Part shown: positions 12,481 to 41,059 of the stretch, one piece after another
How the letters are laid out: the number at the start of each line of letters is the position of its first letter
Position numbering within the stretch: position 1 is the first letter of the stretch
Origin: Prochloraceae cyanobacterium
GTDB taxonomy: Bacteria > Cyanobacteriota > Cyanobacteriia > Cyanobacteriales > JASJDA01
Direction of reading: 5' to 3'
Assembly (NCBI GenBank): GCA_030065755.1
Contig: JASJDA010000042.1
Span: 1 to 41,059 of the forward strand
DNA: 41,059 bases
Notes under the pieces: generated by a model
Seen by the model: the letters and a program-made list of their open reading frames with translations, nothing else
Told to the model about the DNA's origin: nothing
Databases searched by the model: none
Position numbers and translations under genes: made by a program

Positions 12481-13602
12481 ATGAAAACATACAAGTTCAA
12501 GTTATACCAAAGCCAACGGAATAAACACCTGCATCGGTCAATTAATGCAGCAGGCAATATTTATAATCATTGTATTGCTTTGCACAAGCGTTATTATCGA
12601 ATGTTTGGTAAACACTTGAACAAAAACAAGTTGATGAAACATATTGCTAAACTCAGAAATAAAAATGAGTATTGGCAACTTGTAGGCTCTCAAGCAGTAC
12701 AAGATATTGCGCAGCGTATTGATAAAGCTTATCAATTATTTTTTAAACACTATAAAAAAGGAGTTAGACCGCCAAGTTTTAGAAAAAGAATCAAATATAA
12801 ATCTTTCACTCTCAAACAAGCTGGCTATAAATTTCTAGATAGCAACAGACTAAAAATAGGTAAACGTATTTATAAGTTTTGGAGAAGTCGCGAAATACAA
12901 GGCAAAATAAAAACTTTAACTATTAAACGCAATCCGTTAGGAGAAGTTTTTATCTTTATAGTAACAGATTATGTCGAGCAAAAATCAATAACTATGACGG
13001 GTAAAAATGCAGGTTTTGATTTTGGATTAAAGACATTTTTGACTTGTAGTGACGGAACAGAAATTCAATCGCCATTATTTTTAAAGCAATCTCTTAAAGA
13101 ATTAAAACTAGCTTGCCGTCAACATTCTCGCAAGAAAAAAGGATCTAATAACAGAGAAAAAGCTAGAAAAAACTTAGTTAGAGTTCATGAAAAAGTGACT
13201 AACCGTCGTAATGATTGGTTTTGGAAATTAGCACACAAACTAATAGATAAGTTTGACTATCTATTTTTTGAAACACTTAACTTAAAAGGAATGCAAAGGT
13301 TATGGGGGAGAAAAATAGGAGATTTAGCTTTTGCTGAATTTCTCAAAATACTAGATTTTGTAGCTGAGAAAAAGAGTAAAACAGTTAGCTACATTAACCA
13401 GTGGTATCCAAGTTCTAAAACTTGTTCTCAATGCAATCACGTATTAAATAAACTGCTATTAGATACTAGATATTGGGTTTGTCCTAGCTGCTCTACCAAG
13501 CACGGAAGAGATAAAAACGCTTCAATTAATATTCATAGAGTCGGGGCTTCGACTCTGAGGTTAGGAGATGTCAGTCAACCATCGGTTGCAATTTCTGTTT
13601 GA
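12481..13602 (+). CDS. tnpB: RNA-guided endonuclease TnpB (IS200/IS605 type)
   Basis: A 373-residue TnpB. The N-terminal part (residues 1-60, basic and aromatic) is the recognition lobe. The split RuvC nuclease has all three acidic residues: D180 in GFDFGLKTF, E264 in FFETLNLKGM and D344 in HGRDKNASIN. The zinc finger between the last two reads CSQCNHV...CPSC. TnpB uses a right-end-derived omega RNA to cut DNA and keep the transposon present after excision. All key residues are intact, so it may be active. There is no linked tnpA. It is inserted in a small host gene and starts only two or three bases after the host coding sequence ends. Confidence 0.88.
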   Translation: MKTYKFKLYQSQRNKHLHRSINAAGNIYNHCIALHKRYYRMFGKHLNKNKLMKHIAKLRNKNEYWQLVGSQAVQDIAQRIDKAYQLFFKHYKKGVRPPSFRKRIKYKSFTLKQAGYKFLDSNRLKIGKRIYKFWRSREIQGKIKTLTIKRNPLGEVFIFIVTDYVEQKSITMTGKNAGFDFGLKTFLTCSDGTEIQSPLFLKQSLKELKLACRQHSRKKKGSNNREKARKNLVRVHEKVTNRRNDWFWKLAHKLIDKFDYLFFETLNLKGMQRLWGRKIGDLAFAEFLKILDFVAEKKSKTVSYINQWYPSSKTCSQCNHVLNKLLLDTRYWVCPSCSTKHGRDKNASINIHRVGASTLRLGDVSQPSVAISV

Positions 13603-23328: not shown

Positions 23329-25749
23329 ATGAAAAAATTAGTTGTTCTCAAGTTAAATGGGAATTGGAAAGACGGTTTTAGCGTTGCTTTAGAAATGGGA
23401 CAAGAAGGTAAATATCCTGAGACGGAACAGATTGGTTATTTACCTGCCAATACATCCTTAATTACTGCCTACAAAGAGTGGCGATCGATATATCGGCAAT
23501 TGGAACATTCTTTTAGACTCAAAGACAGGATAGATAATTCTTTCCAACTTCCCCAAACTTCAACATATCATCCCGTAGAACTAGAAATAAATGGTTATAT
23601 CAAAAAAAGAAAACAACAATGTACGGACAAAGCTCAAAGATTAAAACAAGAAATAAATCACTGGTTAGAATCACAAGCATTTAGACCAATAGATGCTCGC
23701 TTACGAGAAAATTTAAGTTTAGAAGATGAAGTTCGTTTTCTGATTCGTACTCCCTGCAGTAGCCTGACAAAACTCCCCTGGCATCTTTGGAATTTGCTCG
23801 ATCGTTATTCTAGCGCCGAAATTACAGTAGCTGGCTTAGAACACGAAAAAGCTAAAAATTTAAATTTTAGATCCCCTAAAAAAGTTGTCAAAATCCTCGC
23901 TGTTTTAGGTAATAGTTTGGGAATTGACCTGGAACAAGATAAAAAACAACTGATTCAAAAATTACCACAAGCTAGCGTAACTTTTCTCTGCGAACCTTCA
24001 CGTCAACAACTTAATAACTGCCTCTGGGAGCAATCCTGGGATATTTTATTCTTCGCAGGTCACAGTCAAACAGAAGATCAAAGAGGTCGAATTCACATCA
24101 ATCAGACTGACAGTCTTACCATTGATGAAATCAGCTCCGCACTGAAAAAAGCGATCGATAGTGGATTGCAATTAGCTATTTTTAACTCCTGTGAAGGTTT
24201 AGGAATAGCATCTTCCTTGCAAAAACTCCATCTTCCCCATAGTATTGTGATGCGAGAGCCAGTTCCCGATTTGGTTGCTCAAAAGTTTTTGAATTATTTT
24301 TTAACTTTTTTTGCCAGTGGCAAACCTTTGCATTTGGCAGTGCGATCGGCCAGAGAAAGACTAGAAGGCTTAGAATATCAATTTCCTTGTGCTAGTTGGC
24401 TGCCTACCATCTATCAAAACCCTGCCGTTTTACCTCTGACTTGGTCTGAGTTGCTTGGTAATAATTCCTATGACTCAACTGACTTTCAATCTCCTTCCAA
24501 GACACTAAAAGACTATAAATCAAAAACTGCTAGCGAACAGGTCGTTATCTACGCTCCCAATACGATCGTCTCTCCCACTGTAGTTAGCAATCATATCCGA
24601 TCGGAATCTTACTCTGCCCCTCGATCGGACTTTTCACAGGCAGCAACAGCTTCCAAAAATAGCCCCACTAAGCAGCAAAATTTTTACATAACAGTTCTGG
24701 GAATGACTAGTCTAGCTATTGTTGGAGTAGTAATTTTAGCAACTACACGGCTGTTCAATTTTTCTCAACTCTACTCAAAAGAATCGGGAATTTCCGAGCG
24801 ATCTGCTTCTTCTATTCTTGCTCAAGAGCAAGCAGAAGGGCGATTGACTGCATTCAAAGATAACTTGGCGGATGTAACTGGTGTCCCTCGAGGGCATTTT
24901 AGATATGGCGGTAGCACTACTTGGGCTGTGATTAGAGATAAGATAAACCCGTCGATCGAATCTCTATTCCCACAGTTTCATTTAATTTATACCGAACATC
25001 CCCGGATTGCTGCTAGTTCAGGAGTAGGAGTTCAAATGTTGCTTCAGGATCAATTGACTTTTGCTCAAACCTCTCGTCCTCTCAAGCCATCAGAATACGA
25101 ACGAGCAGAAGCAAAAAGATATACTATCAAACAAATACCCATAGCCATTGATGGCATTGCTTTTGCTGTTAACCCTTCCTTGAATATTCCTGGTTTGACC
25201 GTATCTCAACTAAAAGATATTTACACTGGTAAAATTGTTAACTGGAAAGAAGTGGGCGGTCCCGATCTCCAAATCCTTCCACTCTCTAAATCTGCTGAGT
25301 CAAGTGGTACTGCTGAATTCTTTGTCAAAACTATTCTGAGAAACAAGCAATTTGGCGATTCAGTCAAAATTGTTGCTGATAGCACCCAAACCATAAAAGA
25401 AATTTCTGCTAATCGAGGGGCTATTTTCTTTGCTTCTGCTCCGGAAATAGTAGGTCAGTGTTCGATTAAACCCCTTCCCATTGGCAAAAATGCCGGAAAC
25501 TATATTTCTCCCTACACCAAACCATTCGTGCCACCTTCCCAATGTCCTTCCCGTCGCAATTCTATCAATAACAAAGCTTTCCAACAAGCAGAGTATCCCC
25601 TAACTCGCTATCTCTACGTCATCATTAAAGAAAATGGTTCCTTTGAAGAAAAAGCTGGAAAAGCTTATGTTCAATTACTTCTAACCAAGGAAGGACAAAA
25701 GTCGATCCAAAGTGCTGGTTTTGTTCCCATGCATATTTCTTCCGATTGA
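23329..25749 (+). CDS. CHAT protease domain - membrane span - PstS-like binding domain fusion protein
   Basis: An 806-residue three-part protein. Residues about 1-375 are a CHAT (caspase/separase-like) domain with the catalytic pair H245 in FFAGHSQ and C288 in IFNSCEG, and the typical VPDLVAQKFLNYFLTFFASG.PLHLAVRSARE end. A linker (about 385-445) leads to one membrane span at about 452-476. Residues about 500-806 are a periplasmic phosphate-binding fold (RYGGSTTWAVIRDKINP; QLTFAQTSRPLKPSE; LKDIYTGKIVNWKEVGGPDLQI; SSGTAEFF) as in PstS/SphX. The likely topology puts the protease inside and the solute-binding domain outside. It suggests phosphate or another ligand controlling a cytosolic protease; this is inference. 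GUN4 gene follows 229 bases on. Confidence 0.85.
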   Translation: MKKLVVLKLNGNWKDGFSVALEMGQEGKYPETEQIGYLPANTSLITAYKEWRSIYRQLEHSFRLKDRIDNSFQLPQTSTYHPVELEINGYIKKRKQQCTDKAQRLKQEINHWLESQAFRPIDARLRENLSLEDEVRFLIRTPCSSLTKLPWHLWNLLDRYSSAEITVAGLEHEKAKNLNFRSPKKVVKILAVLGNSLGIDLEQDKKQLIQKLPQASVTFLCEPSRQQLNNCLWEQSWDILFFAGHSQTEDQRGRIHINQTDSLTIDEISSALKKAIDSGLQLAIFNSCEGLGIASSLQKLHLPHSIVMREPVPDLVAQKFLNYFLTFFASGKPLHLAVRSARERLEGLEYQFPCASWLPTIYQNPAVLPLTWSELLGNNSYDSTDFQSPSKTLKDYKSKTASEQVVIYAPNTIVSPTVVSNHIRSESYSAPRSDFSQAATASKNSPTKQQNFYITVLGMTSLAIVGVVILATTRLFNFSQLYSKESGISERSASSILAQEQAEGRLTAFKDNLADVTGVPRGHFRYGGSTTWAVIRDKINPSIESLFPQFHLIYTEHPRIAASSGVGVQMLLQDQLTFAQTSRPLKPSEYERAEAKRYTIKQIPIAIDGIAFAVNPSLNIPGLTVSQLKDIYTGKIVNWKEVGGPDLQILPLSKSAESSGTAEFFVKTILRNKQFGDSVKIVADSTQTIKEISANRGAIFFASAPEIVGQCSIKPLPIGKNAGNYISPYTKPFVPPSQCPSRRNSINNKAFQQAEYPLTRYLYVIIKENGSFEEKAGKAYVQLLLTKEGQKSIQSAGFVPMHISSD

Positions 25750-25978
25750 ACATAATTGCTAATAATATTGCGATCTATGGCGATCGAAACGATGCTTTGA
25801 GAAATTGTCAGTAAACATAAAAGCGTATAATTTCGATCGAATCTATTTCATTAGTATGGAGAATTAACAAATCATTTGTGAGAGGCTGACTCTATTGCCT
25901 AGCGCCCTTGTCTGGATTTATGTAAATTGCTATATTAAGCAATATAAATCTTTAATTTTTCATGTATGTTATCAGAAA

Positions 25979-26518
25979 ATGAGCGATAACAATAATTTTT
26001 GGACTACATTACCAGGCATACTAACAGGAATTGCTGGTATTATCACCGCTACTGCTACTTTACTAGGTGTTATTCACGCAATGAAAGGCCCTGAAACTCC
26101 TGTAAAGCCTGAAGATCCTGTCGCGACAACGCCCCAGTATCCCGTACTTAAACAATATCTACAAGAAAAACAATGGAAAAAAGCAGACAAAGAAACAAAC
26201 AATTTAATACGTAGCCTAGTTTACGACACAGTAACTATAAAAAATATCGAAAACATACCTTGCAAACAGCTTAATGAAATTGACCGACTCTGGCTAGAAA
26301 ACAGTAAAAATCATTTTGGTTTTACTGTTCAGAAAAATATATGGCAAACAGAAGGAAGAAACACAGAAAAATTTCGCGAGAAGGTAAGCTGGAAAAATAA
26401 AACATATGACGAACTAACTTTTAGCCTTGGTTCTCGCCCAGGACACTTACCTTCAGCATGGCCAGTGAAGCATGAATACTTATTCCCTAGAATTGAATAT
26501 TGTCAAAACTCTAGGTAA
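25979..26518 (+). CDS. Membrane-anchored GUN4-domain protein
   Basis: A 179-residue protein. An N-terminal span (residues about 8-29: LPGILTGIAGIITATATLLGV) is followed by a short acidic/Pro linker and the GUN4 domain (about 55-170). It shows YLQEKQWKKADKETNNLI, LNEIDRLWLENSKNHFGFTVQKNIW and SAWPVKHEYLF. GUN4 domains bind porphyrins. The free-standing protein assists Mg-chelatase, but many cyanobacterial members are attached to kinases, caspases or membrane anchors and have unknown roles. The ATG at 25979 is chosen; an in-frame TTG at 25895 would add an unlikely 28 residues. Its place next to a CHAT protein suggests a tetrapyrrole-sensing partner, as inference. Confidence 0.8.
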   Translation: MSDNNNFWTTLPGILTGIAGIITATATLLGVIHAMKGPETPVKPEDPVATTPQYPVLKQYLQEKQWKKADKETNNLIRSLVYDTVTIKNIENIPCKQLNEIDRLWLENSKNHFGFTVQKNIWQTEGRNTEKFREKVSWKNKTYDELTFSLGSRPGHLPSAWPVKHEYLFPRIEYCQNSR

Positions 26519-26566: not shown

Positions 26567-27409
26567 TTAATTACTTAATTTATATTCTCTAAAATTTTCT
26601 CTTTTATTTCCGTTTATTCTCAACACAGCTATGGTTTGATTCTGGTTATTTTTAATAACGTAATACCACTTAAAATTAGTGCGATCGTTAATCGCTCTAA
26701 GTAACGTTGGTTTTCCTTGAAAAGCTTCTTGAATCGCTTGCTCCTGTTCTTTTGCTACAAATAAACGTTGAAATCCTCGTTTTTTATTTTCTACATCCCA
26801 AGATTTATATCTCCAAATAACCGATCGATCTTCTGAATCTGGCAAGTATAATGTCATGCTCTCAACAAAAGATAATTCATTAACATTTCTAATCAGATCT
26901 CTAAGGGTTGTGGGGACTTTATTTCTGGGAGAACTATTCAATTGCGTAATTTGCCGCACAAATTTAGTTTTTAGCTTTCGTGTTTGTTCGGCAGCGATTC
27001 TTTTAAAGACTTTGCTGCGATGAATTTGAATGCGATTATTGACTAATGAAAGAATGCCAATAAGAGCTATAAAACTAGCCATTATTCCACTCATGTAGAG
27101 CATATAAGTGGTTTTATGAGCTTCTTTAGTTAGAAAAGAATCATTAAATTCTCTGTTATTCTGAAGGTAACTAATAGCTTTAACTATCTCTTGAATGCCC
27201 AAGACGATCGTCATGGCAACTCCAAAAAGACTCAATGCTACGCTAGAAAAAAATATTCCCGATAAAACCGCTTCTACTTTAGGACTAAAAATATCCCAGT
27301 TAAGTATTTCGTCGAAAATTCCTAAAACTACTAAAGTAGCACCTAAAAGTAAGAGGGAAATAGTAATTGTAACTGTCAGGGATAATAACTTAATCTTGTT
27401 TCTTCTCAC
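26567..27409 (-). CDS. Membrane protein of unknown function
   Basis: A 280-residue protein with three hydrophobic segments: about 8-32, 46-72 and 106-128. The soluble C-terminal part (about 130-280) starts with a basic amphipathic helix (NNRIQIHRSKVFKRIAAEQTRKLKTKF) and ends with alternating strands (WYYVIKNNQNQTIAVLRING). That looks like a sensor or ligand-binding module, and I do not recognise the family. It is convergent with the GUN4 gene (48 bases between) and lies downstream of the oxidoreductase on the same strand, across a 117-base gap. Nothing in the sequence assigns a biochemical role. Confidence 0.65.
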   Translation of the reverse strand: MRRNKIKLLSLTVTITISLLLLGATLVVLGIFDEILNWDIFSPKVEAVLSGIFFSSVALSLFGVAMTIVLGIQEIVKAISYLQNNREFNDSFLTKEAHKTTYMLYMSGIMASFIALIGILSLVNNRIQIHRSKVFKRIAAEQTRKLKTKFVRQITQLNSSPRNKVPTTLRDLIRNVNELSFVESMTLYLPDSEDRSVIWRYKSWDVENKKRGFQRLFVAKEQEQAIQEAFQGKPTLLRAINDRTNFKWYYVIKNNQNQTIAVLRINGNKRENFREYKLSN

Positions 27410-28548: not shown

Positions 28549-29781
28549 TTAAAATTGGACAAAATTACCCAAGGGTAGACAAAGCTGTACATAGTCCTGG
28601 GTGTCATTTATTTGACTTTTAGTTCCTGCTTCATCCAGAACAGTCGGCTGCACTCTGTCCACAGGCGTAAATTCCGCATCCGCTATGCGTACTAGGTTGT
28701 AGCTAGCATTCAAGTCTCTGTCGCAGGAAAAGCCACACTCACAGTTAAAGGTGCGTTCGCTTAAAGTGAGAGTTTTTTTTACTTGACCGCAAGCACTACA
28801 AGTTTTGCTAGAAGGAAAAAAACGGTCGGCTATGATTAATTGGGAACCATACAATTCGCATTTATAATTTAACTGGCGACGAAATTCAAATAATCCCATA
28901 TCAGCTATAGCTTTTGATAGCTTTCGATTTCGCATCATCCCCAATACATTCAAATCTTCGATGACTATCTGACCGTGGTTTTTAGCCAAATTAGTCGTCA
29001 ATTTATGTAATGTATCTTTACGCAGATTAGCTATTCTTCTATGCAATCTAGCTACTTTTAGCTGTGCTTTATACCAGTTATTAGATTTAAGTTCTTTTCG
29101 GCTTACATCTCTTTGTAATCTCCTGAGTTTTTGTTCTAGTTTTTTATAACTTTTGGCTCCTTCTATTACTTCTCCAGTTGAGAGAATAGCTAGATTTTTT
29201 ATCCCTAAATCTACTCCCACACTCTTAGTAATTTTCGATGTCGATTCTGGCTCTATTTCCAGCTTAAAAGAAATAAACCATCGGTCGGCTTGACGAGATA
29301 TCGTTACATTTTTTGGTTTAAACCCCTTTGGCAATCGCTCGTAGGTTTTTAATACTCCTATAATTGGAACTTTAATCTGGAAATGGTCTATTACTTTGAT
29401 ACTTCCATCGAGGGTAAAACTATTATGTCTAGATTTCTTTTTGAAACGGGGAAATCCTACTGGCTTCCCGTTTATTTTCTTCTTCTTAAAAAAGTCATTA
29501 AATGCTTGTCTCAGTTGACGTAGAGCGTATTGAGGGGCGCATTTACTAACTTCATAGTACCAATCGTGAGTAGGTTTTACTAAAGCAACTAATAATTTAT
29601 GTAGATCTATACTACTTGGAAACTTTAGACGCTCTTCAGGGTTTTCTTTGTTGTATTTCAACAGTTTTTTACATAGAGCCAAACCCCAATTATATGCATG
29701 CCTTGCAGTTCCTGCATGCTTAGCTAGTAGGATTCTTTGAGTAATATTTACTTTTAGTTCAGTCTTAAATCCTAGCAGCAT
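28549..29781 (-). CDS. tnpB: RNA-guided endonuclease TnpB (IS607 type)
   Basis: A 410-residue TnpB. RuvC acids are intact: D191 in GVDLGIKN, E275 in IVIEDLNVLGM and D356 in CDRDLNASYN. The zinc ribbon reads CSACGQ...CECGFSCDRD. It differs from the TnpB at 12481 in length and sequence, so the window holds two lineages. Its start at 29781 is two bases after the tnpA stop, so the genes are translationally linked. The C-terminal tail (DYVQLCLPLGNFVQF) covers the right-end DNA, where the omega RNA is expected. The likely job is guide-RNA-directed cutting that helps the element persist. Confidence 0.9.
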   Translation of the reverse strand: MLLGFKTELKVNITQRILLAKHAGTARHAYNWGLALCKKLLKYNKENPEERLKFPSSIDLHKLLVALVKPTHDWYYEVSKCAPQYALRQLRQAFNDFFKKKKINGKPVGFPRFKKKSRHNSFTLDGSIKVIDHFQIKVPIIGVLKTYERLPKGFKPKNVTISRQADRWFISFKLEIEPESTSKITKSVGVDLGIKNLAILSTGEVIEGAKSYKKLEQKLRRLQRDVSRKELKSNNWYKAQLKVARLHRRIANLRKDTLHKLTTNLAKNHGQIVIEDLNVLGMMRNRKLSKAIADMGLFEFRRQLNYKCELYGSQLIIADRFFPSSKTCSACGQVKKTLTLSERTFNCECGFSCDRDLNASYNLVRIADAEFTPVDRVQPTVLDEAGTKSQINDTQDYVQLCLPLGNFVQF

Positions 29782-29783
29782 TT

Positions 29784-30392
29784 TTACTTTAATCCTTTAG
29801 CCACCTCTTTTAATTGTTCTACTATTTTCTTGTTTTTATGACTTCTACTTCCATATAGTCTAGCACTGAATACTGTAATTATCTCTAAAACATCTTGAGC
29901 CAAATCCTCCTCAAAAGTAGAGTCCTCTGTTCTATTAATAATGATTACTTCAGTCCCGAAAATCTCACACAAAGTAAAAAGTAATTCAGTGCCAAATCTA
30001 AGTAATCTATCTTTATGGGTTATGACCAATCTTTCTACTTGGTTAGTGCAGATAAGCTTGATTAATTTAATCAGTCCTCTTTTCCGGTAATTTAAGCCAC
30101 TTCCAAGATCTTTTATTACTTCAAAGCTCCAACCGTTTTTAGCACAGTAAGATTCTAAAACAATAACTTGTCGCTTTAAATCTTCCTTTTGCTCATTACT
30201 AGATACTCTTGCATACGCTACTGTTAATGAATCATCTTTCCTATTAGCAATTAAGCCTGAAACATCAAATCTTCGATGACCGCCAGGTGTTCTAGTTGCA
30301 GTAATTTTTCCCTCCTCCTCCCATCGTCGAATCGTCTTAGTGCTCACTCCAAGTAATTCAGCCGCTTCCTTTACCGTCAATAAATTAGACAT
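29784..30392 (-). CDS. tnpA: IS607 family serine recombinase transposase
   Basis: A 202-residue transposase. The N-terminal MerR-like helix-turn-helix (TVKEAAELLGVSTKTIRRWEEEG, residues about 5-27, then TPGGHRRF) binds the element ends. The serine recombinase catalytic domain follows, with the nucleophile Ser in YARVSSNEQ (about residue 65). The later VERLVITHKDRLLRFG region completes the fold. It catalyses movement with minimal target preference. The ATG at 30392 (MSNLLTVKEAAELLG) is favoured over an in-frame TTG at 30404. The coding region ends EVAKGLK, then two bases, then tnpB. Confidence 0.92.
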   Translation of the reverse strand: MSNLLTVKEAAELLGVSTKTIRRWEEEGKITATRTPGGHRRFDVSGLIANRKDDSLTVAYARVSSNEQKEDLKRQVIVLESYCAKNGWSFEVIKDLGSGLNYRKRGLIKLIKLICTNQVERLVITHKDRLLRFGTELLFTLCEIFGTEVIIINRTEDSTFEEDLAQDVLEIITVFSARLYGSRSHKNKKIVEQLKEVAKGLK

Positions 30393-30436
30393 AACCCCAA
30401 TCAATCTCTTTGATATGTCTAATATTATATAATATT
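30385..30436 (-). promoter_or_regulatory. IS607 left end: inverted repeat and 16-base palindrome
   Basis: TTAGACATA (30385-30393) and TATGTCTAA (30414-30422) form a perfect 9-bp inverted repeat across the tnpA start codon. AATATTATATAATATT (30421-30436) is a perfect palindrome containing TATAAT. The pair probably combines the tnpA promoter with recombinase binding sites. Confidence 0.55.
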
Positions 30437-31793: not shown

Positions 31794-32207
31794 GAAGTGC
31801 GCTCGGGCACACTCTTCTATTTACGACTAAAGAGAATAAAATAGATTTCTGAAGGGGTAAAAAATGGAAATTGAACTATCTACTAATGAGGAGCTTGCCG
31901 TTGGTTTAAATCTGTAAAATTATATTGAGTTTTAGCTGCAATTGCTCCTGAAAAGAGCGAGCAAATTCGATTTATATTTCACTTTCATTTTCCAATAAAA
32001 TCTCGGCATCGAGCGCTAATTCATCAATAATTTAACAAAAAGAGAAACTTTTTGCGTAAAAACCGTGCAGGTGGCGATCTTATCGTCATAATTTAAGGTT
32101 TTTCACCACTTATGTCCTAATTTTTGTTGCAGAGACGGTTGGCGGTAAAAAAATAGAGTTATTAATAAAGTAGTCCTAGCTCGAATTGCTTGAGAAGGAT
32201 TTTAGCG
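31794..32207. other. Intergenic region between the truncated subtilase and the TPR-CHAT gene
   Basis: No recognisable gene. A short plus-strand frame at 31864-31917 (17 residues, MEIELSTNEELAVGLNL) has GAAGGGG eight bases upstream of its ATG, so it may be translated or be the remnant of a broken gene. The rest is AT-rich. AAGGA sits nine bases before the TPR-CHAT ATG at 32208. Confidence 0.35.
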
Positions 32208-34520
32208 ATGCGTTCTCGTTATTTATTTCTCAGTCTGCTCGTGGCAACTTCATTCGCTACATTAGTTGCTGTGAATCCACAGAAGTACAGTTTAGAAATG
32301 CCCGAGGCAGTGGCACAAGTCGCTACAAAAGTAGAGAGTAAGAAGGCGGAAGCAGACCGACTTTTACAACAAGGAATTCAACACTATCGAGTTTCTCAAT
32401 ATCAAGAAGCACTGCGCTCTTGGCAAAGGTCACTTGCTATCTATAGAGATATAGGCGATCGTTCCGGTGAAGGCACTACCCTCAACAATATAGGAGCAGT
32501 TTACGATAATCTCGGTCAATATAGCCAGGCCCTCAATTACTACCAGCAAGCTTTAGCTATCAGCAAAGACATAGGCGATCGTTCCGGTGAAGGCACTACC
32601 CTCAACAATATAGGAGCAGTTTACCGTCATCTCGGTCAATATAGCCAGGCCCTCAATTACTACCAGCAAGCTTTAGCTATCAGGAAAGACATAGGCGATC
32701 GTTCCGGTGAAGGCACTACCCTCAACAATATAGGGCTAGTTTACGATAATCTCGGTCAATATAGCCAGGCCCTCAATTACTACCAGCAAGCTTTAGCTAT
32801 CAGCAAAGACATAGGCGATCGTTCTGGTGAAGGCATTACTTTCAGCAATATTGGTTACTTACTAAAGCAACAGAAGCAACCAGAGTTAGCTATTGTCTTC
32901 TACAAGCAATCGGTAAATATCACTGAAGAAATTCGGACGGGTATCCGCAGACTGCCACGAGAATTACAGCTTTCCTACACAAAAACTGTTGAAAATACTT
33001 ACCGACGGTTAGCAGATCTACTGCTTTCTCAAGGACGAGTTTTAGAAGCACAACAAGTATTGGAACTGCTGAAAATCCAAGAATTGCGGGAATATACTCG
33101 CAATAGCAGAATCGGGACCAAACTGACCGAAGTGGTCTTGCTGCCTAAAGAAAAAGAAATTGTCGATTTCTATGGCAGTTTGATCGTCTTCGGTCAAAAA
33201 CTAAGCCAGTGCGAACAAACTCGATGTCAACAACGCACTCAACTTCGCAAGGAACGCGATCGACTCAAAAGAGAGTACGATCGAGCTATTGTAAGTTTAA
33301 AAAAAGAAATCCGTGCTCGTCGAGCTAGAGATGATGTCTTTTTAGATCCAAAAAACCTCAGTGGTACAGCTAAAAAAATTATCCAAGCCCAACCTGGGAC
33401 GGTTTTGATTTATCCCTTCGTACTCGAAGATAAACTCTGGTTGCTGTGGGCTGCTCCAGGTAAACTGGTCAGCAAGCGGGAAATAGCAGGGGTAGGACAG
33501 AAACAACTAACAGAAAAGGTCGTAAAATTTCGGCAAATGCTACAAGACCGCAATTCGGATCTTAAAGAACTGCAAAGGGTGAGCCAACAACTTTATCAAT
33601 GGCTGATCGCGCCGATCGAAGATGAACTTCTTGCCAGTTCGCTCCAGCATTTAGTTTTTTCCCTCGATCGCGCCAGTCGCTACATCCCGATGGCTGCTTT
33701 ATTTGATGGCGAAAAATATCTGATTGAAAAATATACCGTAACGACTATTCTCTCAGCCGAGTTAACCGATACCGAATCTCGTTTACCTTCAGGTACTGAA
33801 AAAGTTAATGTATTAGCATTAGGAACTTCCGAGCCCATAGATGGTTTTAATGCTTTACCCCATGTCGTCAGAGAAATCGATGCTATTGTCCTGCTTCAAG
33901 ATCCAAAAGATCGCAAAGGTATTTATCCTGGGATTCAATTTCTCAACAGTGAGTTTGATTTTACAACTATGCGGGACCATCTCGAAGGTCGTCAAATTTT
34001 GCACGTTGCCACTCATGGCAAATTCGTTCCTGGCAGCCAGGAAAACTCCTATATTCTCATGGGTGACGGCGAGAAATTACCTATTTCCGAAATTAAAGTA
34101 CTAGAAAATTATCTCGATGACGTTCACATAGTCGTTCTCTCTGCTTGTGAGACGGCGTTAGGAGGAACGGACAATGAAGGCATAGAAATCCCTGGGATTA
34201 GTTCCTATTTCTTAGGAGAAGGCAAAGCGAAAACGACGATCGCTTCTTTATGGCAAGTGGACGATCTCAGTACCAGTTTGTTGATGGAGAGATTGTATCA
34301 CTATCTGGCTAGTAATAGTGGCGAACATCCAATGACTAAAGCTGAAGCGCTGCGTCAAGCACAATTGAGCCTGTTAGAAGATCGACAACTCGATTCTCGC
34401 TCGGACAACGATCGAGGCGGGATTGTTTCAGAAGCAGTTGCAGAACAGCAACTCTCTAGAAGGAGTTTAGCTCATCCTTACTACTGGGCCCCCTTTATTT
34501 TGATTGGCAACGGTTTGTGA
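32208..34520 (+). CDS. Exported TPR-CHAT protease-like protein
   Basis: A 770-residue protein. Residues about 1-24 (MRSRYLFLSLLVATSFATLVA) form a signal peptide. Residues about 40-230 are TPR repeats of 40 residues; three central copies (from residue 82) are almost identical at DNA level. A helical linker leads to the CHAT domain (about 480-770) with H603 in HVATHGKF and C647 in VLSACETALGG, the usual catalytic pair. The end (HPYYWAPFILIGNG) is the standard CHAT finish, so it is complete. CHAT proteases cut specific partners, with TPRs as the protein-binding part. The ATG at 32208 has AAGGA upstream; a TTG at 32190 is less likely. Confidence 0.87.
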   Translation: MRSRYLFLSLLVATSFATLVAVNPQKYSLEMPEAVAQVATKVESKKAEADRLLQQGIQHYRVSQYQEALRSWQRSLAIYRDIGDRSGEGTTLNNIGAVYDNLGQYSQALNYYQQALAISKDIGDRSGEGTTLNNIGAVYRHLGQYSQALNYYQQALAIRKDIGDRSGEGTTLNNIGLVYDNLGQYSQALNYYQQALAISKDIGDRSGEGITFSNIGYLLKQQKQPELAIVFYKQSVNITEEIRTGIRRLPRELQLSYTKTVENTYRRLADLLLSQGRVLEAQQVLELLKIQELREYTRNSRIGTKLTEVVLLPKEKEIVDFYGSLIVFGQKLSQCEQTRCQQRTQLRKERDRLKREYDRAIVSLKKEIRARRARDDVFLDPKNLSGTAKKIIQAQPGTVLIYPFVLEDKLWLLWAAPGKLVSKREIAGVGQKQLTEKVVKFRQMLQDRNSDLKELQRVSQQLYQWLIAPIEDELLASSLQHLVFSLDRASRYIPMAALFDGEKYLIEKYTVTTILSAELTDTESRLPSGTEKVNVLALGTSEPIDGFNALPHVVREIDAIVLLQDPKDRKGIYPGIQFLNSEFDFTTMRDHLEGRQILHVATHGKFVPGSQENSYILMGDGEKLPISEIKVLENYLDDVHIVVLSACETALGGTDNEGIEIPGISSYFLGEGKAKTTIASLWQVDDLSTSLLMERLYHYLASNSGEHPMTKAEALRQAQLSLLEDRQLDSRSDNDRGGIVSEAVAEQQLSRRSLAHPYYWAPFILIGNGL
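32451..32810 (+). repeat. Three near-identical 120-bp tandem TPR units
   Basis: Copies start at 32451, 32571 and 32691, and a diverged fourth begins at 32811. Copy 1 differs from copy 2 at four bases and from copy 3 at three. The period equals 40 codons. Such low divergence, including at silent positions, points to recent duplication or gene conversion. Confidence 0.85.
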
Positions 34521-36176: not shown

Positions 36177-36233
36177 AGATAAATTTTGTCTCAAAGAGTT
36201 CATGCCGTTTCCTTGATTTTTGAACAACTGAAA

Positions 36234-38525
36234 ATGCCTAATATCAAGCGCCGTCATTTTTTACAATTTGCTAGTTCTGTTTTAGCAACGATCGGTTTAA
36301 GTCAAATCGACCTGCAGCGACAGGCACTCCGTTACGCTAAAGTACTCGCCCAAAATACAGAGCGAAAATTAGCTTTGTTAGTGGGTATTAATGGTTATCG
36401 TAATTATCCCTTGTCTGGATGTATCAACGATGTTTATCTACAGCGAGAATTGTTGATTCATCGCTTTGGTTTTAATCCAAAAGATATTCTTTTAGTCACC
36501 GATGAAGATAAAAGCGAGATCTCGCCAACCCGTGCCGGAATTCTGCAAGCTTTTGAAGAACATCTCATTAAGCAAGCCAAGCCTGGTGATGTAGTAGTTT
36601 ATCATTTCTCTGGTCACGGGGCGCAAGTGGTAGATCCCGAAAGCGGCTTTGCCGACCAACGCAACAGTACTTTCGTGCCGCTCGACAGCTCTTTTGAACA
36701 AATACGGGGACAATTGCAAGTATCGGATATTATGGGGGCGACCCTGTTTTTGTTAATGTCAGCCCTGAAGACAGAAAACGTAACTGTAGTGTTAGATAGC
36801 TGTCATTCTGGCGGTGGCAAACGAGGAAACCTAATTATTCGCTCCCTAGAACGCTTTTATACAGGCAAAACGATTTATCCTTCAGGGCAAGAGCGCAGTT
36901 ATCAACAAGAATGGTTATCTCGTCTTAATATGTCGCGAGAAGACTTTATCAGAAAGCGACAAAAGGTAGCCAAAGGGGTAGTAATTGCTGCTACTAGACG
37001 GGATCAATTAGCTGCGGACTTGCCATTTTATAATTTTTATGCTGGCGCTTTTACCTACGCCCTGACTCAATATCTCTGGCAAGAAACACAAAATCGAGGA
37101 GTAGGTAATGTAATGGCTAATGTGGCTCGAATTACTACCCGCATCTCCACCACCCAGCAAATTCCCGAATTTGAAGCGAAACAAGAAAGCGATCGCGCTA
37201 AACCTAGTTATTTTTTAAGCAAACAAGTGCCTCCAGCCGAAGGAGTGATTCAAAAAGTTAACGGCGAGCGAGTTGAATTTTGGCTGGCGGGGATAGAACC
37301 AGAAGATTTTGAAGTCTTCGCTCGCGGTAAAGGAGCAATATTTACAATTTTGGCTCGCAACGGTCAAAAATTGGGAGCAATGCAATTAGAATCTTTGAAA
37401 GGTTTGGAAGGTTTTGGCAAAATTATCGCAGTCGAACCATCCCAATCTATTCGATCGGGTTCTCTTTTACAAGAAGAAATCAGAGCTATTCCCAAAGACT
37501 TTTCTTTGCGTTTGGGGTTAGACGACTCTTTAGGATACCAAACCGATCGAATCAGAACGAGGCTGCGATCGCTGCAACAATTAGAAACTTTACCCCTAGC
37601 TCGGGGCGAAGTAGATTATATACTCGGTCGCATGACAGAGTCTATCTACCGAGAAATAGCTGCAACCAACCGCGAACCAATTCCAAAAGTAGGAAGTTTG
37701 GGTTTGTACAGTCAGGGACGCGATCTAATTCCAGGTTCTTTTGGCGTTCCAGGAGAAAACTTGACACGAGCGATCGCACGTTTGCAGCCTAAATTCCGTT
37801 CTCTGTTAGCTGCCCGACTCATTAAGCTTACTCTCAATGCAGATACATCTAAATTAGCTGTTTCAGCCTCGATGAAGATTCTCGGCGCACAAGAAGAAGT
37901 AGTTGCCTCTAAATTTACTCCTCGCGCTCTCAGAAATATCGACAGAGAAGAAGGCGATCGCCCGACACCTGAAGTTTCTCCCGTCAGGATAAAAACTGAA
38001 GCAGGTATTCCTTTACTTCCCCTGAGAACCAGGGTTCAATTTCAAGTTAAAAACTCAGAAGATCGCGATCTTTATGTCACCGTTTTAGTTATCGATGCTG
38101 GAGGCGAAATAGCAATAGTCTTCCCAAATACTTGGACAGCAACAACTGAAGCAGCACTAATTAGAGCTGGAGAAACTAAATCTATTCCCGAAGTCGGTAT
38201 AGATCCGTTTCGTTTGGTGGTGAGCGAACCTTTAGGCATGGTGGAAGTCTTGATTTTAGCTAGCATTTCACCACTTCGCAGCGCCCTTAAAACTTTACAA
38301 TCTTTTGCCGCGCGCAGAGGTTTATCTAGAAGACCCTTTGGTTTAGACGATCGCGAGCAAACTACTTTAGTCAACAATCTGGTCGGGGATTTAGATCGTG
38401 TCAGTCGCACTGGTACTCGCAGAACTCGTCTTCAAGCCGAGTTCGATCCTACCGTTAGAGCGATCGACACCACCCAAATAGCTGCCATGTCAATTACGTT
38501 TCGCTCTATTGAGGAGGTGTTATAG
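36234..38525 (+). CDS. Tat-signal caspase-like (C14, orthocaspase) protein with DUF4384-like tail
   Basis: A 763-residue protein. The start MPNIKRRHFLQFASSVLATIGL has the KRRxFLxF form of a Tat signal. The caspase domain (about residues 40-330) carries H128 in HFSGHGAQV and C190 in LDSCHSGGG, the catalytic pair; the opening KLALLVGINGYRNYPLSGCINDV matches the p20 start. The region about 560-690 (RTRVQFQVKNSEDRDLYVTVLVIDAGGEIAIVFPN) is a DUF4384-like beta domain. Caspase homologues of this type cut after Arg or Lys. The ATG at 36234 is preferred; an in-frame TTG at 36186 adds a meaningless leader. The next gene starts three bases after the stop, so they form an operon. Confidence 0.88.
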   Translation: MPNIKRRHFLQFASSVLATIGLSQIDLQRQALRYAKVLAQNTERKLALLVGINGYRNYPLSGCINDVYLQRELLIHRFGFNPKDILLVTDEDKSEISPTRAGILQAFEEHLIKQAKPGDVVVYHFSGHGAQVVDPESGFADQRNSTFVPLDSSFEQIRGQLQVSDIMGATLFLLMSALKTENVTVVLDSCHSGGGKRGNLIIRSLERFYTGKTIYPSGQERSYQQEWLSRLNMSREDFIRKRQKVAKGVVIAATRRDQLAADLPFYNFYAGAFTYALTQYLWQETQNRGVGNVMANVARITTRISTTQQIPEFEAKQESDRAKPSYFLSKQVPPAEGVIQKVNGERVEFWLAGIEPEDFEVFARGKGAIFTILARNGQKLGAMQLESLKGLEGFGKIIAVEPSQSIRSGSLLQEEIRAIPKDFSLRLGLDDSLGYQTDRIRTRLRSLQQLETLPLARGEVDYILGRMTESIYREIAATNREPIPKVGSLGLYSQGRDLIPGSFGVPGENLTRAIARLQPKFRSLLAARLIKLTLNADTSKLAVSASMKILGAQEEVVASKFTPRALRNIDREEGDRPTPEVSPVRIKTEAGIPLLPLRTRVQFQVKNSEDRDLYVTVLVIDAGGEIAIVFPNTWTATTEAALIRAGETKSIPEVGIDPFRLVVSEPLGMVEVLILASISPLRSALKTLQSFAARRGLSRRPFGLDDREQTTLVNNLVGDLDRVSRTGTRRTRLQAEFDPTVRAIDTTQIAAMSITFRSIEEVL

Positions 38526-38528
38526 AAA

Positions 38529-41059
38529 ATGCGCTCGACTCCAAAAAAAACTAACGGGCAATTTCTGAGAACTCTAGCCAGTAGTGGTTTGACTCTATTG
38601 TTGGGTTTTTCCTTGTTATCCGAGTCATTAGCAGCTAATCCCAAGCTAAAATCTTTAGAAATAGCCCAACAAACCGAAACAACTAGGCAACAAGCTTCTC
38701 GAACTGCTGCCGAACAACTATTTAATGAAGGACTGCAACTTTACGAGCAAGGAGCGCCAGAATCTCTGCTAGAGGCGATCGTTAAGTGGGAGCAAGCTTT
38801 GCCGCTCTGGAGGGCGATCGCAGATAAAGAATGGGAAGCCGTTACACTCCTGGCGATCGGCAAAGTCTACTCGGCTTTGGGAGAGAAACAAAAGGCTCTC
38901 TCCTACTACAACCAATCTTTACCTTTATTTAGAGCGGTAGGGCACAAAGCCGGCGAAGCTGTTACTCTCAACAATATTGGTAAAGTTTACTCAGATTTGG
39001 GAGAGAAACAAAAGGCTTTATCCTACTACAAGCAAGCTTTACCTCTAACTAGAGCCGTAGGGTACAAAGCCGGCGAAGCTGCCACTCTCAGCAATATTGG
39101 TAAAGTTTACTCGGATTTGGGAGACCAACAAAAGGCTCTATCTTACTACAAGCAAGCTTTACCTTTATATAGAGCCATAGGAGATCGATCGGGTCAAGCT
39201 ACTACTCTCAACAATATTGGTAAAGTTTACTCGGATTTGGGAGAAAAACAAAAGGCTCTTTCCTACTACAATCAAGCTCTATCTCTGAGAAAAGCGGTAG
39301 GGGACAAAGCAGGAGAAGCTATTACTCTTAACAATATTGGTACAGTCTACTCGGATTGGGGAGACAAACAAAAAGCTCTCTCCTACTACAACCAAGCTCT
39401 ACCTCTGAGAAAAGCGGTAGGGGACAAAGCAGGAGAAGCTATTACTCTTAACACTATTGGTACAGTCTACTCGGATTGGGGAGACAAACAAAAAGCTCTC
39501 TCCTACTACAACCAAGCTCTACCTTTAACTAAAGCCGCAGAGGATCGAGCTATAGAAGCAGGTACTTTCAACGGTATTGGTGCTGTCTACTCTAATTTGG
39601 GAGAGCAACAAAAGGCTCTCTCCTACTTCAATCAAGCTCTACCATTATTTAGATCCGTAGGGGACAAATCAGGCGAAGCTTGCACTTTCCACAATATTGG
39701 TGCTGTCTACTCGGATTTGGGAGAAAAACAAAAGGCTATATATTACTACAACCAATCTTTACCTCTAAAAAGAGCGGTAGGGGACAAAGCAGGAGAAGCT
39801 ACTAGTCTTAACAATATTGGTACAGTCTACTCGGATTGGGGAGACAAACAAAAAGCGCTCTCCTACTACAACCAAGCTTTACCTTTAAGTAGGGCGGTAG
39901 GGGACAAACAAGGCGAAGCGGTTACTCTCGTCAATATTGGTGTTGCCTACTCGGCTTTAGGAGAGAAACAAAAGGCTCTTTCCTACTACAACCAAGCTCT
40001 ACCATTATTTAGATCCGTAGGGGATAAAGCGGGAGAAGCTAATACTCTCAACAATATTGGTGCTGTCTACTTTGATTGGGAAGAGAAACAAAAGGCTCTA
40101 TCTTACTACAACCAATCTTTACCTCTGAGAAAAGCGGTCGGGGACAAAGCAGGCGAAGCTGTAACTTTTTATAATATTGCCTACTTAGAGCGCTCGCGGG
40201 GAAACTTAAAAATTGCTCTAGCTCGAGTTGAGAAATCCATTAAAATCTTGGAAGAACTACGGACTAAAGTAGTAAACCCGCAACTGCGGACTTCTTATTT
40301 TGCTTCCGTACAAGTTTATTATCAATTTTATATCGACCTGTTGATGGAGCTACACCAAAAAGCTCCGAACCTTGGATACGATATCAAAGCATATCATGCG
40401 AGTGAAACTTCTCGTGCTCGCAGTCTCCTCGAATTGCTAACCGAAGCCAATGCTGACATACGTACTGGAGTAGATGGCAACTTATTGCAAAAAGAACGCA
40501 GTTTGCAACAACAAATCGTTGCTAGAGAAAAAAAGCGAGTAGAATTAATCGCTAAAAACCTCAACCCAGAACGAGTCAAACAGCTCGAAGGAGAAAGAGC
40601 GGCATTATTATCGCAATTAAATCGAGTTGAAACTCAAATTCGCCTGGCTAGTCCCGCTTATGCGGCTCTCAAGATGCCGCAACCGTTAACTTTATCCCAG
40701 GTACAACAGCAAGTTCTCGATGACGAAACTGTACTGTTACAGTATTCTCTGGGAGAAAAACGCAGTTATTTATGGCTGGTAACTAGCAAAGGGATGAGCA
40801 CTTATCAACTCCCTCCTCGCGCCGAAATTGAAAAACTTGCCCAAGCATTTTATTCTCTGCTGCAAGATCCAAACTTTCGTTTTCCCACTCGTGGCGGTCT
40901 AGAGCCAATTCCCAGTGCTAGAAGTATCGAACCGGCGCGCCAATTAAGTCAAATACTCTTAGCTCCAGTAGCCGCAAAACTCAATAAAAAACGGATTTTA
41001 GTAGTCGCAGATGGGGCGTTACAATATATTCCTTTTGCTGCTTTACCCCTACCACAAAC
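38529..41059 (+). CDS. Exported TPR-CHAT protease-like protein, cut by the window end
   Basis: An open frame of at least 843 codons that runs off the window. Residues about 10-36 form a signal peptide (LASSGLTLLLGFSLLSESLAANP). Residues about 106-545 are eleven 40-residue TPRs (TLNNIGKVYSDLGEKQKALSYYNQALPL type) plus a degenerate twelfth. A helical linker follows, and the CHAT domain begins at about residue 720 (DDETVLLQYSLGEKRSYLWLV); it is cut at YIPFAALPLP before its catalytic His and Cys. A strong GGAGGT is found 11 bases before the ATG, inside the end of the caspase gene three bases upstream. The two are probably translated together. Confidence 0.85.
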   Translation, partial: MRSTPKKTNGQFLRTLASSGLTLLLGFSLLSESLAANPKLKSLEIAQQTETTRQQASRTAAEQLFNEGLQLYEQGAPESLLEAIVKWEQALPLWRAIADKEWEAVTLLAIGKVYSALGEKQKALSYYNQSLPLFRAVGHKAGEAVTLNNIGKVYSDLGEKQKALSYYKQALPLTRAVGYKAGEAATLSNIGKVYSDLGDQQKALSYYKQALPLYRAIGDRSGQATTLNNIGKVYSDLGEKQKALSYYNQALSLRKAVGDKAGEAITLNNIGTVYSDWGDKQKALSYYNQALPLRKAVGDKAGEAITLNTIGTVYSDWGDKQKALSYYNQALPLTKAAEDRAIEAGTFNGIGAVYSNLGEQQKALSYFNQALPLFRSVGDKSGEACTFHNIGAVYSDLGEKQKAIYYYNQSLPLKRAVGDKAGEATSLNNIGTVYSDWGDKQKALSYYNQALPLSRAVGDKQGEAVTLVNIGVAYSALGEKQKALSYYNQALPLFRSVGDKAGEANTLNNIGAVYFDWEEKQKALSYYNQSLPLRKAVGDKAGEAVTFYNIAYLERSRGNLKIALARVEKSIKILEELRTKVVNPQLRTSYFASVQVYYQFYIDLLMELHQKAPNLGYDIKAYHASETSRARSLLELLTEANADIRTGVDGNLLQKERSLQQQIVAREKKRVELIAKNLNPERVKQLEGERAALLSQLNRVETQIRLASPAYAALKMPQPLTLSQVQQQVLDDETVLLQYSLGEKRSYLWLVTSKGMSTYQLPPRAEIEKLAQAFYSLLQDPNFRFPTRGGLEPIPSARSIEPARQLSQILLAPVAAKLNKKRILVVADGALQYIPFAALPLPQ
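38844..40163 (+). repeat. Eleven tandem 120-bp TPR-coding units
   Basis: The period of 120 bases is exact from 38844 to 40163 with no frame shift. Units vary by ten to forty percent except units 5 and 6 (from 39324 and 39444), which are almost the same over about 100 bases, so local duplication or conversion occurred. The array is longer than the three to six TPRs of most CHAT proteins. Confidence 0.85.

Follow-up and report, generated by a model that had tools for sequence, protein, structure and literature searches.

The window examined here, a stretch of 41,059 nucleotides from a Prochloraceae cyanobacterium, carries a gene whose product joins a CHAT protease domain, a single membrane span (TM) and a PstS-like PBP domain, and this CHAT-TM-PBP architecture is correct and real. 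We regard it as probable that the protein is a receptor of the EACC2-caspase (CHAT) type with one membrane span, a cytoplasmic protease, an outer PstS-like sensor and proteolysis that is switched by a ligand.

The sequence-only reading of this DNA had described a CHAT domain with the residue pair H245/C288, one membrane helix and a PstS-like domain, and this description is borne out by Pfam, motifs and hydropathy (Table 1). Pfam CHAT matches residues 111-345 (1.1e-14, 55 bits against a cut-off of 24) and Pfam PBP_like_2 matches residues 523-787 (1.4e-28, 100.9 bits against a cut-off of 27). The NCBIfam PstS family TIGR02136 also matches, at 7.8e-40, yet stays under its cut-off (136.9 versus 206.6 bits), and the HetF profile NF045509 (NCBIfam) gives a weak match well below threshold (30.1 versus 1200 bits). 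No defence-system profile matched the receptor. The catalytic residues lie in the motifs AGHS (H245) and NSCEG (C288). In a Kyte-Doolittle scan, the top 19-residue segment begins at residue 452 with a mean of 2.31, and hydropathy exceeds 1.6 nowhere in the protein beyond starts 451-461; with no further hydrophobic peak, the protein is read as having one span and no signal peptide.

Table 1. The receptor gene, its parts and its downstream neighbour, in positions of the window
Feature	Position	Strand	Basis or remark
CHAT-TM-PBP receptor CDS	23329..25749	+	806 aa from ATG, free of internal stops
N-terminal alpha+beta part, residues 1-180	23329..23868	+	fits published EACC2 description
CHAT catalytic part, residues 184-378	23878..24462	+	SAVED-CHAT 8tl0 alignment and Pfam CHAT
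Catalytic His245 codon	24061..24063	+	His in 60/62 modules
Catalytic Cys288 codon	24190..24192	+	Cys in 61/62 modules
Linker including membrane span, residues 379-510	24463..24858	+	modelled with low confidence, evolves fast
Single membrane span, residues 452-470	24682..24738	+	hydropathy 2.31, no second span
PstS-like PBP domain, residues 511-805	24859..25743	+	pLDDT about 96; 4gd5 alignment
Pocket-type S529	24913..24915	+	S in 19/19 CHAT fusions
Pocket-type S564	25018..25020	+	S in 18/19 CHAT fusions, T in 1
Pocket-type S582-R583	25072..25077	+	19/19 CHAT fusions
Pocket-type S659-G660-T661, SGT loop	25303..25311	+	SG 19/19; T or S at 661 19/19
C711, first Cys of presumed disulfide	25459..25461	+	72/73 PBP rows
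C739, second Cys of presumed disulfide	25543..25545	+	72/73 PBP rows
GUN4-domain protein, N-terminal hydrophobic segment; downstream neighbour, membership doubtful	25895..26518	+	GUN4 4e-29

An AlphaFold model of the protein that used 62 rows reaches high confidence over residues 2-378 and 511-805 (pLDDT mostly >90) and drops below 50 at residues 382-505, which cover the linker and the span. Alpha+beta elements precede the CHAT domain. In a VIA-align comparison of a 384-residue model, residues 1..379 aligned with separase 5fc2 (Z 25.4, 322 residues, rmsd 3.5) and residues about 1-369 with Craspase (Csx29, TPR-CHAT; Z 20-21); the SAVED-CHAT filament protein 8tl0 aligned only with residues 184-373 (Z 20.6). 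Because the separase and Craspase alignments span residues ~1-378, the predicted fold suggests that the EACC2-like alpha+beta part is no separate add-on and forms, together with CHAT, a separase-type module, an assignment that we count as new. Searched with a profile of the protease module, the PDB sequences yielded no relative, so that the relation to separase is visible by fold alone. For the PBP domain (residues 511-805), the nearest folds are phosphate-binding proteins, some of them phosphate-bound, namely phosphate-bound PstS 4gd5 (Z 28.0, rmsd 2.1), 4q8r (Z 27.7) and Synechocystis Sll0540 (9l8j; Z 26.1).

Features shared across the family suggest that the PBP domain lies outside the plasma membrane and the CHAT domain in the cytoplasm. 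The span stands ahead of the PBP domain in 70 of 73 family rows, and the cysteine pair C711 and C739 is found in all but one of the PBP rows (72/73), with exactly two cysteines in 66 of the 73. A cysteine pair kept family-wide suggests a disulfide and, through it, an extracytoplasmic PBP domain. The net charge is +1.17 before the span and +0.49 after it, a weak positive-inside signal (p 0.03, with rows that are not independent). Of the transmembrane receptor that had been read from the sequence, the single span stands, and the placement of one domain on each side is favoured by the cysteine pair, the position of the span and the weak charge bias.

The dyad, scored in 62 CHAT modules (18 CHAT-PBP fusions and 44 others), is intact in 60, that is, in 16 of the 18 scored fusions, the window copy included, and in all 44 other modules. 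It is broken in two CHAT-PBP fusions from the window's genus, one with His changed to Arg (L080) and one in which both residues are lost (L079); the dyad is thus missing from two of five genus copies, which retain PBP domain and span despite the loss. The window copy probably has a proteolytic output, but this does not extend to every paralogue. In the PBP domain, S529, S582, R583, S659, G660 and Thr or Ser at 661 are kept in all 19 fusions and S564 in 18, with Thr in the remaining one, so that the comparison with PstS found pocket-type residues kept rather than lost among the homologues. Position 654, which is Lys in the window protein and Arg in most others, aligns with Arg125 of C. perfringens PstS, a residue that binds phosphate (PMC12421899), and the loop ahead of SGT is one residue longer in the window protein than in PstS. 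The SAR11 PstS has Pro at the place of Arg125 and still binds phosphate (PMC12421899). Phosphate or another oxyanion is a plausible ligand.

The architecture recurs within and beyond the source genome, a draft of 8.46 Mb in 455 contigs, which holds two more CHAT-TM-PBP genes, 76% (C301) and 47% (C151) identical to the window gene. Two such genes were found in the one other genome of the window's family that was examined. Among 391 Cyanobacteriales genomes, at least 19 fusion genes occur in at least 14 genomes, three of the genes in the source genome; the count is a lower bound, as the census scores about two candidates per genome. A first census with a six-row profile had given three genomes, and the use of long open frames and a profile rebuilt with divergent members gave 14. 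Five fusions belong to the window's genus (the window copy, L078, L080, L010 and L079) and 14 lie elsewhere (two in L108, plus L139-L142, L160, L161, L190-L193, L195 and L196); frames are shortened in three of them (L142, L161 and L195). A phylum-wide draw of 386 genomes overlapping the order added no fusion at E 1e-145, where fusions scored in two segments can be missed, and owing to this overlap and cut-off the draw says little on other orders.

Purifying selection acts on both domains. A comparison of the window gene with its C301 paralogue gives dN/dS values of 0.17 for CHAT (130-375), 0.28 for PBP and 0.75 for the linker, and the CHAT region of L080 gives 0.22 against the window copy. The draft state of the assembly, with its 455 contigs, might raise the suspicion that the gene is a chimera of assembly or annotation, a concern already voiced from the sequence. 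The recurrence of the architecture in 18 other genes (19 genes of 14 genomes in all) rules out chance and misassembly as explanations, and with a G+C content that stays even over the gene (0.38-0.42) and two domains that are both under purifying selection, an artefact of assembly or annotation is scarcely credible.

Trees of 62 CHAT modules and 73 PBP domains point to more than one origin of the fusions. In the CHAT tree, the genus copies fall on the CHASE2-type side, and the other fusions form a separate clade (clade 2), which has a long branch and includes two Peripla_BP_6 relatives. In the PBP tree, the genus copies group with TPR-PBP proteins and with further PBPs from that genus (support 99), and those of clade 2 fall in another group (97); the long branches of L079 and L080 leave the details of the genus clade unsure. 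A single origin of all CHAT-PBP proteins, with the PBP_like_2 fusions constrained together, was rejected (AU p 2.6e-80). The simplest reading has at least two separate events in cyanobacteria that joined a PstS-like domain to this protease, although a single fusion in which one half was later replaced would yield the same tree picture.

The relatives of the protease module suggest a constant protease with a variable sensor. Among 20 close relatives, 14 carry CHASE2 and the others TPR or nSTAND1-WD40, and the relative at L194 carries Peripla_BP_6, so that the C-terminal domains found after this module are CHASE2, TPR, nSTAND1-WD40, Peripla_BP_6 and PBP_like_2. The PBP module, for its part, follows Ser/Thr kinases in the window's genus (L085, L088 and L098 by Pfam, L093 by sequence), TPRs (L082 and L083 by Pfam) and a C14 caspase, the last in a C14 caspase-TM-PBP protein (L089 1390-3726, G024) that places a second caspase-fold family on the same sensor. 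A close relative of this protein is found at L091 1-2523 (G024), where the locus end truncates its start. G385 and G360 each have a gene resembling the kinase part of a G216 protein, with TM-anchored PBP genes behind it; in G216 itself, the kinase and the PBP are fused into a single protein. The kinase counterpart loci are L143 4669-9905 and L144 3890-7907 (separate genes) and L109 6943-9027 (fused kinase-TM-PBP). The source genome holds about 16 such PBPs plus fragments, against one pstC over the cut-off. Given these sensor swaps, the kinase fusions and the excess of PBPs over pstC, the PBP family looks sensory rather than transport-linked.

The window gene lies ~430 bases downstream of Tex and 145 bases upstream of the GUN4 gene. 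Its identified neighbours in the window are Tex, roadblock, GTPase, GUN4, alcohol dehydrogenase, an IS607-type element and subtilase, and the earlier remark that no transporter is nearby agrees with this list; the genome's one pstC over the cut-off lies on C323. No relative of the GUN4 neighbour was found beside the other compared fusions, and the GUN4 pairing, a single case that is not conserved, was dropped. A pairing with ppk1 was dropped on the same grounds: a polyphosphate kinase gene stands ~475 bases upstream of the CHAT-PBP gene on the same strand at L106 738-5766 (G024:C142), the sole case.

A recurrent gene order is found at several clade-2 loci and in one relative: an HTH/sigma-like gene and then a DUF1822 gene precede the CHAT-sensor gene in the fusions of L139, L191, L196 and L108 and in the relative at L194. 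The same HTH/sigma-like and DUF1822 order occurs at CHASE2-type loci, for example L146, L147, L153, L155 and L156. The regulator gene upstream of DUF1822 shows weak HTH matches here and is an ECF sigma factor in eLife 70394. Sigma-like or DUF1822 genes were found neither beside the window copy nor directly beside the other four genus copies. At L193 2387-7687 (G286:C195), a fused NNH2-NACHT-DUF1822 gene stands directly upstream of the CHAT-PBP gene, and on C151 a DUF1822 gene adjoins a CHAT-STAND gene some 7 kb from the CHAT-PBP gene. The source genome has four DUF1822 genes, and its HTH/sigma-like and DUF1822 pair without a CHAT neighbour (L207 5110-6860, G000:C212) is a possible trans partner of the window receptor. 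At L108 4836-14250 (G295:C118), three consecutive CHAT genes lie downstream of a DUF1822 and an HTH/sigma-like gene; two carry PBP_like_2, and the other is a CHAT frame overlapping a Peripla_BP_6 frame, perhaps through a frameshift. At L140 2-10999 (G251:C195), a clade-2 CHAT-PBP gene is preceded by two Peripla_BP_6 genes and followed by an SBP_bac_8-VWA gene.

We propose that residues 1-378 act as a cytoplasmic cysteine protease module of the separase/Craspase type, which a flexible linker and one membrane helix would join to a disulfide-bonded, two-lobed PstS-like domain outside the plasma membrane. The outer lobes would close on a small anion, or lose it, with phosphate, another oxyanion or a phosphorylated compound being the most likely candidates. 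This change of ligand would rearrange the receptor subunits in the membrane and switch on the protease, which would then cut itself or a cytoplasmic partner. In the related operons, the likely partner would be the DUF1822 protein encoded beside the HTH/sigma-like regulator, leading to a transcriptional response; the window copy, having no such neighbours, would act on partners encoded elsewhere, perhaps the C212 pair. The side of the membrane, the ligand, the switching, the proteolysis and the substrate are parts of the model that we infer. We consider the receptor reading likely, and the model agrees with what has been proposed for EACC2 (eLife 70394). Points against the model are the loss of the dyad in two of five genus copies, the lack of adjacent sigma-like or DUF1822 genes in all five, the Lys at the place of Arg125 with its longer loop, the weakness of the charge signal and the low model confidence of linker and span.

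The most closely related alternative shares this architecture and differs in ligand and outcome: the protein may sense something other than phosphate, be it another anion, a peptide, or a surface or phage molecule, and act as an invader or stress receptor that leads to cell death, as has been proposed for EACC systems. Both papers place their families among the biological conflict systems of multicellular bacteria (eLife 70394; eLife 52696), the sensor modules are freely swapped, the fusion at L193 has the NNH2-NACHT-DUF1822 gene directly upstream, and the equivalent of Arg125 is Lys, next to a longer loop. The near-invariance of S529, S564, S582, R583, S659, G660 and T/S661 in the fusions points the other way, as do the closest folds, which are phosphate-binding proteins and in some cases have phosphate bound, and the polyphosphate kinase gene beside the L106 copy, a single case. 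We take this alternative to be a possibility of some weight, short of being probable.

The output may be questioned as well as the ligand. The CHAT part might be a non-catalytic scaffold, such that an outside ligand recruits or releases inner partners without proteolysis; L080 and L079 lack the dyad yet have the PBP domain and span, and selection still constrains the CHAT region of L080 (dN/dS 0.22 against the window copy). Since the window copy, 16 of the 18 scored fusions and all 44 other modules retain the dyad, a scaffold is unlikely. The PstS-like fold and a genome with one pstC over the cut-off would also suit a membrane-tethered phosphate scavenger that feeds PstCAB and carries CHAT as a passive passenger, but this is very improbable, given that the roughly 16 PBPs are mostly fused to other modules, that constraint on CHAT is at least as strong as on PBP (dN/dS 0.17 versus 0.28) and that no transporter gene was identified beside the window gene. 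Building on the receptor reading, one might speculate, as a rather doubtful extension, that one PstS-like outer module has been wired by repeated fusion to a separase-like protease, Ser/Thr kinases and C14 caspases, so that the same extracellular anion signal would be turned into proteolysis or phosphorylation, with the protease arm cutting DUF1822 and freeing a sigma-type regulator.

The sequence-only reading had also held that this fusion was not a described system. That claim may hold for the PstS-like sensor on this protease and fails for the wider design, since EACC2-caspase proteins are published (Kaur, Iyer, Burroughs, Aravind 2021, eLife 70394) and caspase-TM-PBP proteins are noted for EACC1 (Kaur et al. 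2020, eLife 52696). EACC2-caspase proteins combine a constant protease with a variable C-terminus, extracellular or intracellular, that includes CHASE2 with TM helices, and ECF sigma and DUF1822 genes adjoin the majority, not all, of the TRADD-N-free members (eLife 70394); as a majority feature, this neighbourhood was treated as non-defining. The window protein resembles them in placing a caspase-superfamily domain with a His-Cys dyad behind an N-terminal alpha+beta part, and in the highly variable C-terminal domain among its relatives, but differs in its PstS-like type II PBP and in having no sigma/DUF1822 neighbour. The module fits EACC2-caspase, the EACC2 identity being taken from the published description. 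The text of the EACC2 paper names 'several small-molecule-binding domains', among which a PstS-like type II PBP does not appear (eLife 70394), and a PstS-like member may already be drawn in the published figures. A survey of cyanobacterial orthocaspases lists one PBP_like_2 fusion (PMC8283722).

EACC1 systems share the N-terminal caspase, the variable C-terminus and instances of a TM with an extracellular PBP behind the caspase, the PBP reference given being a ribose receptor of type I fold (eLife 52696). They differ in that EACC1, a single-TM domain, is encoded by a separate, adjacent 5' gene and in being mostly actinobacterial; the gene upstream of the window receptor is Tex. Separase and Craspase (Csx29, TPR-CHAT) have the fold of residues 1-378 and the His-Cys dyad but neither membrane span nor PBP. 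Both are soluble and are controlled by securin or target RNA. In the transmembrane anti-sigma factor DdvA, the part with the CHAT fold is reportedly periplasmic. DdvA (PDB 8rot, Z 15.4) likewise has a CHAT-type fold in a membrane protein, but at the C-terminus (706-991), whereas in the window protein CHAT is N-terminal and PBP C-terminal. HetF is a cyanobacterial CHAT protein with a weak NCBIfam match, but the window protein lies far under the HetF cut-off and HetF has no PBP. PstS of the phosphate ABC transporter shares fold and most pocket-type residues; the window domain differs in being protease-fused, TM-anchored and not encoded with PstCAB, and in its extra Cys pair and its Lys for Arg125. 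What is new is the PstS-like sensor on an EACC2-type protease, with at least two origins and with a window copy that has no sigma/DUF1822 neighbours, and, within the window's genus, the joining of the same PBP sensor to kinases, TPRs and a C14 caspase. A literature search with few subscription papers in its scope found no experimental study of the EACC2 systems, the EACC1 systems or the orthocaspase fusion.

Membrane receptors with a cytoplasmic caspase-fold protease output are well known in animals. Bacterial receptors of this type have been predicted, and the CHAT-TM-PBP family provides a concrete candidate, offering the sensor fold of a well-studied ligand class (phosphate), a mutable dyad and natural dyad-less paralogues as controls. 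The related operons supply a candidate substrate (DUF1822) and regulator, and the predicted match to the separase module may provide structural templates for a possible mode of activation.

The window holds further genes of related type downstream of the receptor gene, namely a TPR-CHAT protein (32190-34520), a Peptidase_C14 caspase with DUF4384 (36186-38525) and a partial CHAT match (40929-41054), so that four caspase-fold genes lie in one stretch within 18 kb. An IS607-type element, in which a MerR-resolvase transposase adjoins a TnpB-like OrfB, occupies 28549-30404 (-), and another TnpB-like gene lies at 12481-13602. Facing the GUN4 gene, 26567-27409 (-) encodes a 280-aa protein with a hydrophobic N-terminal part and no Pfam match over the cut-off.
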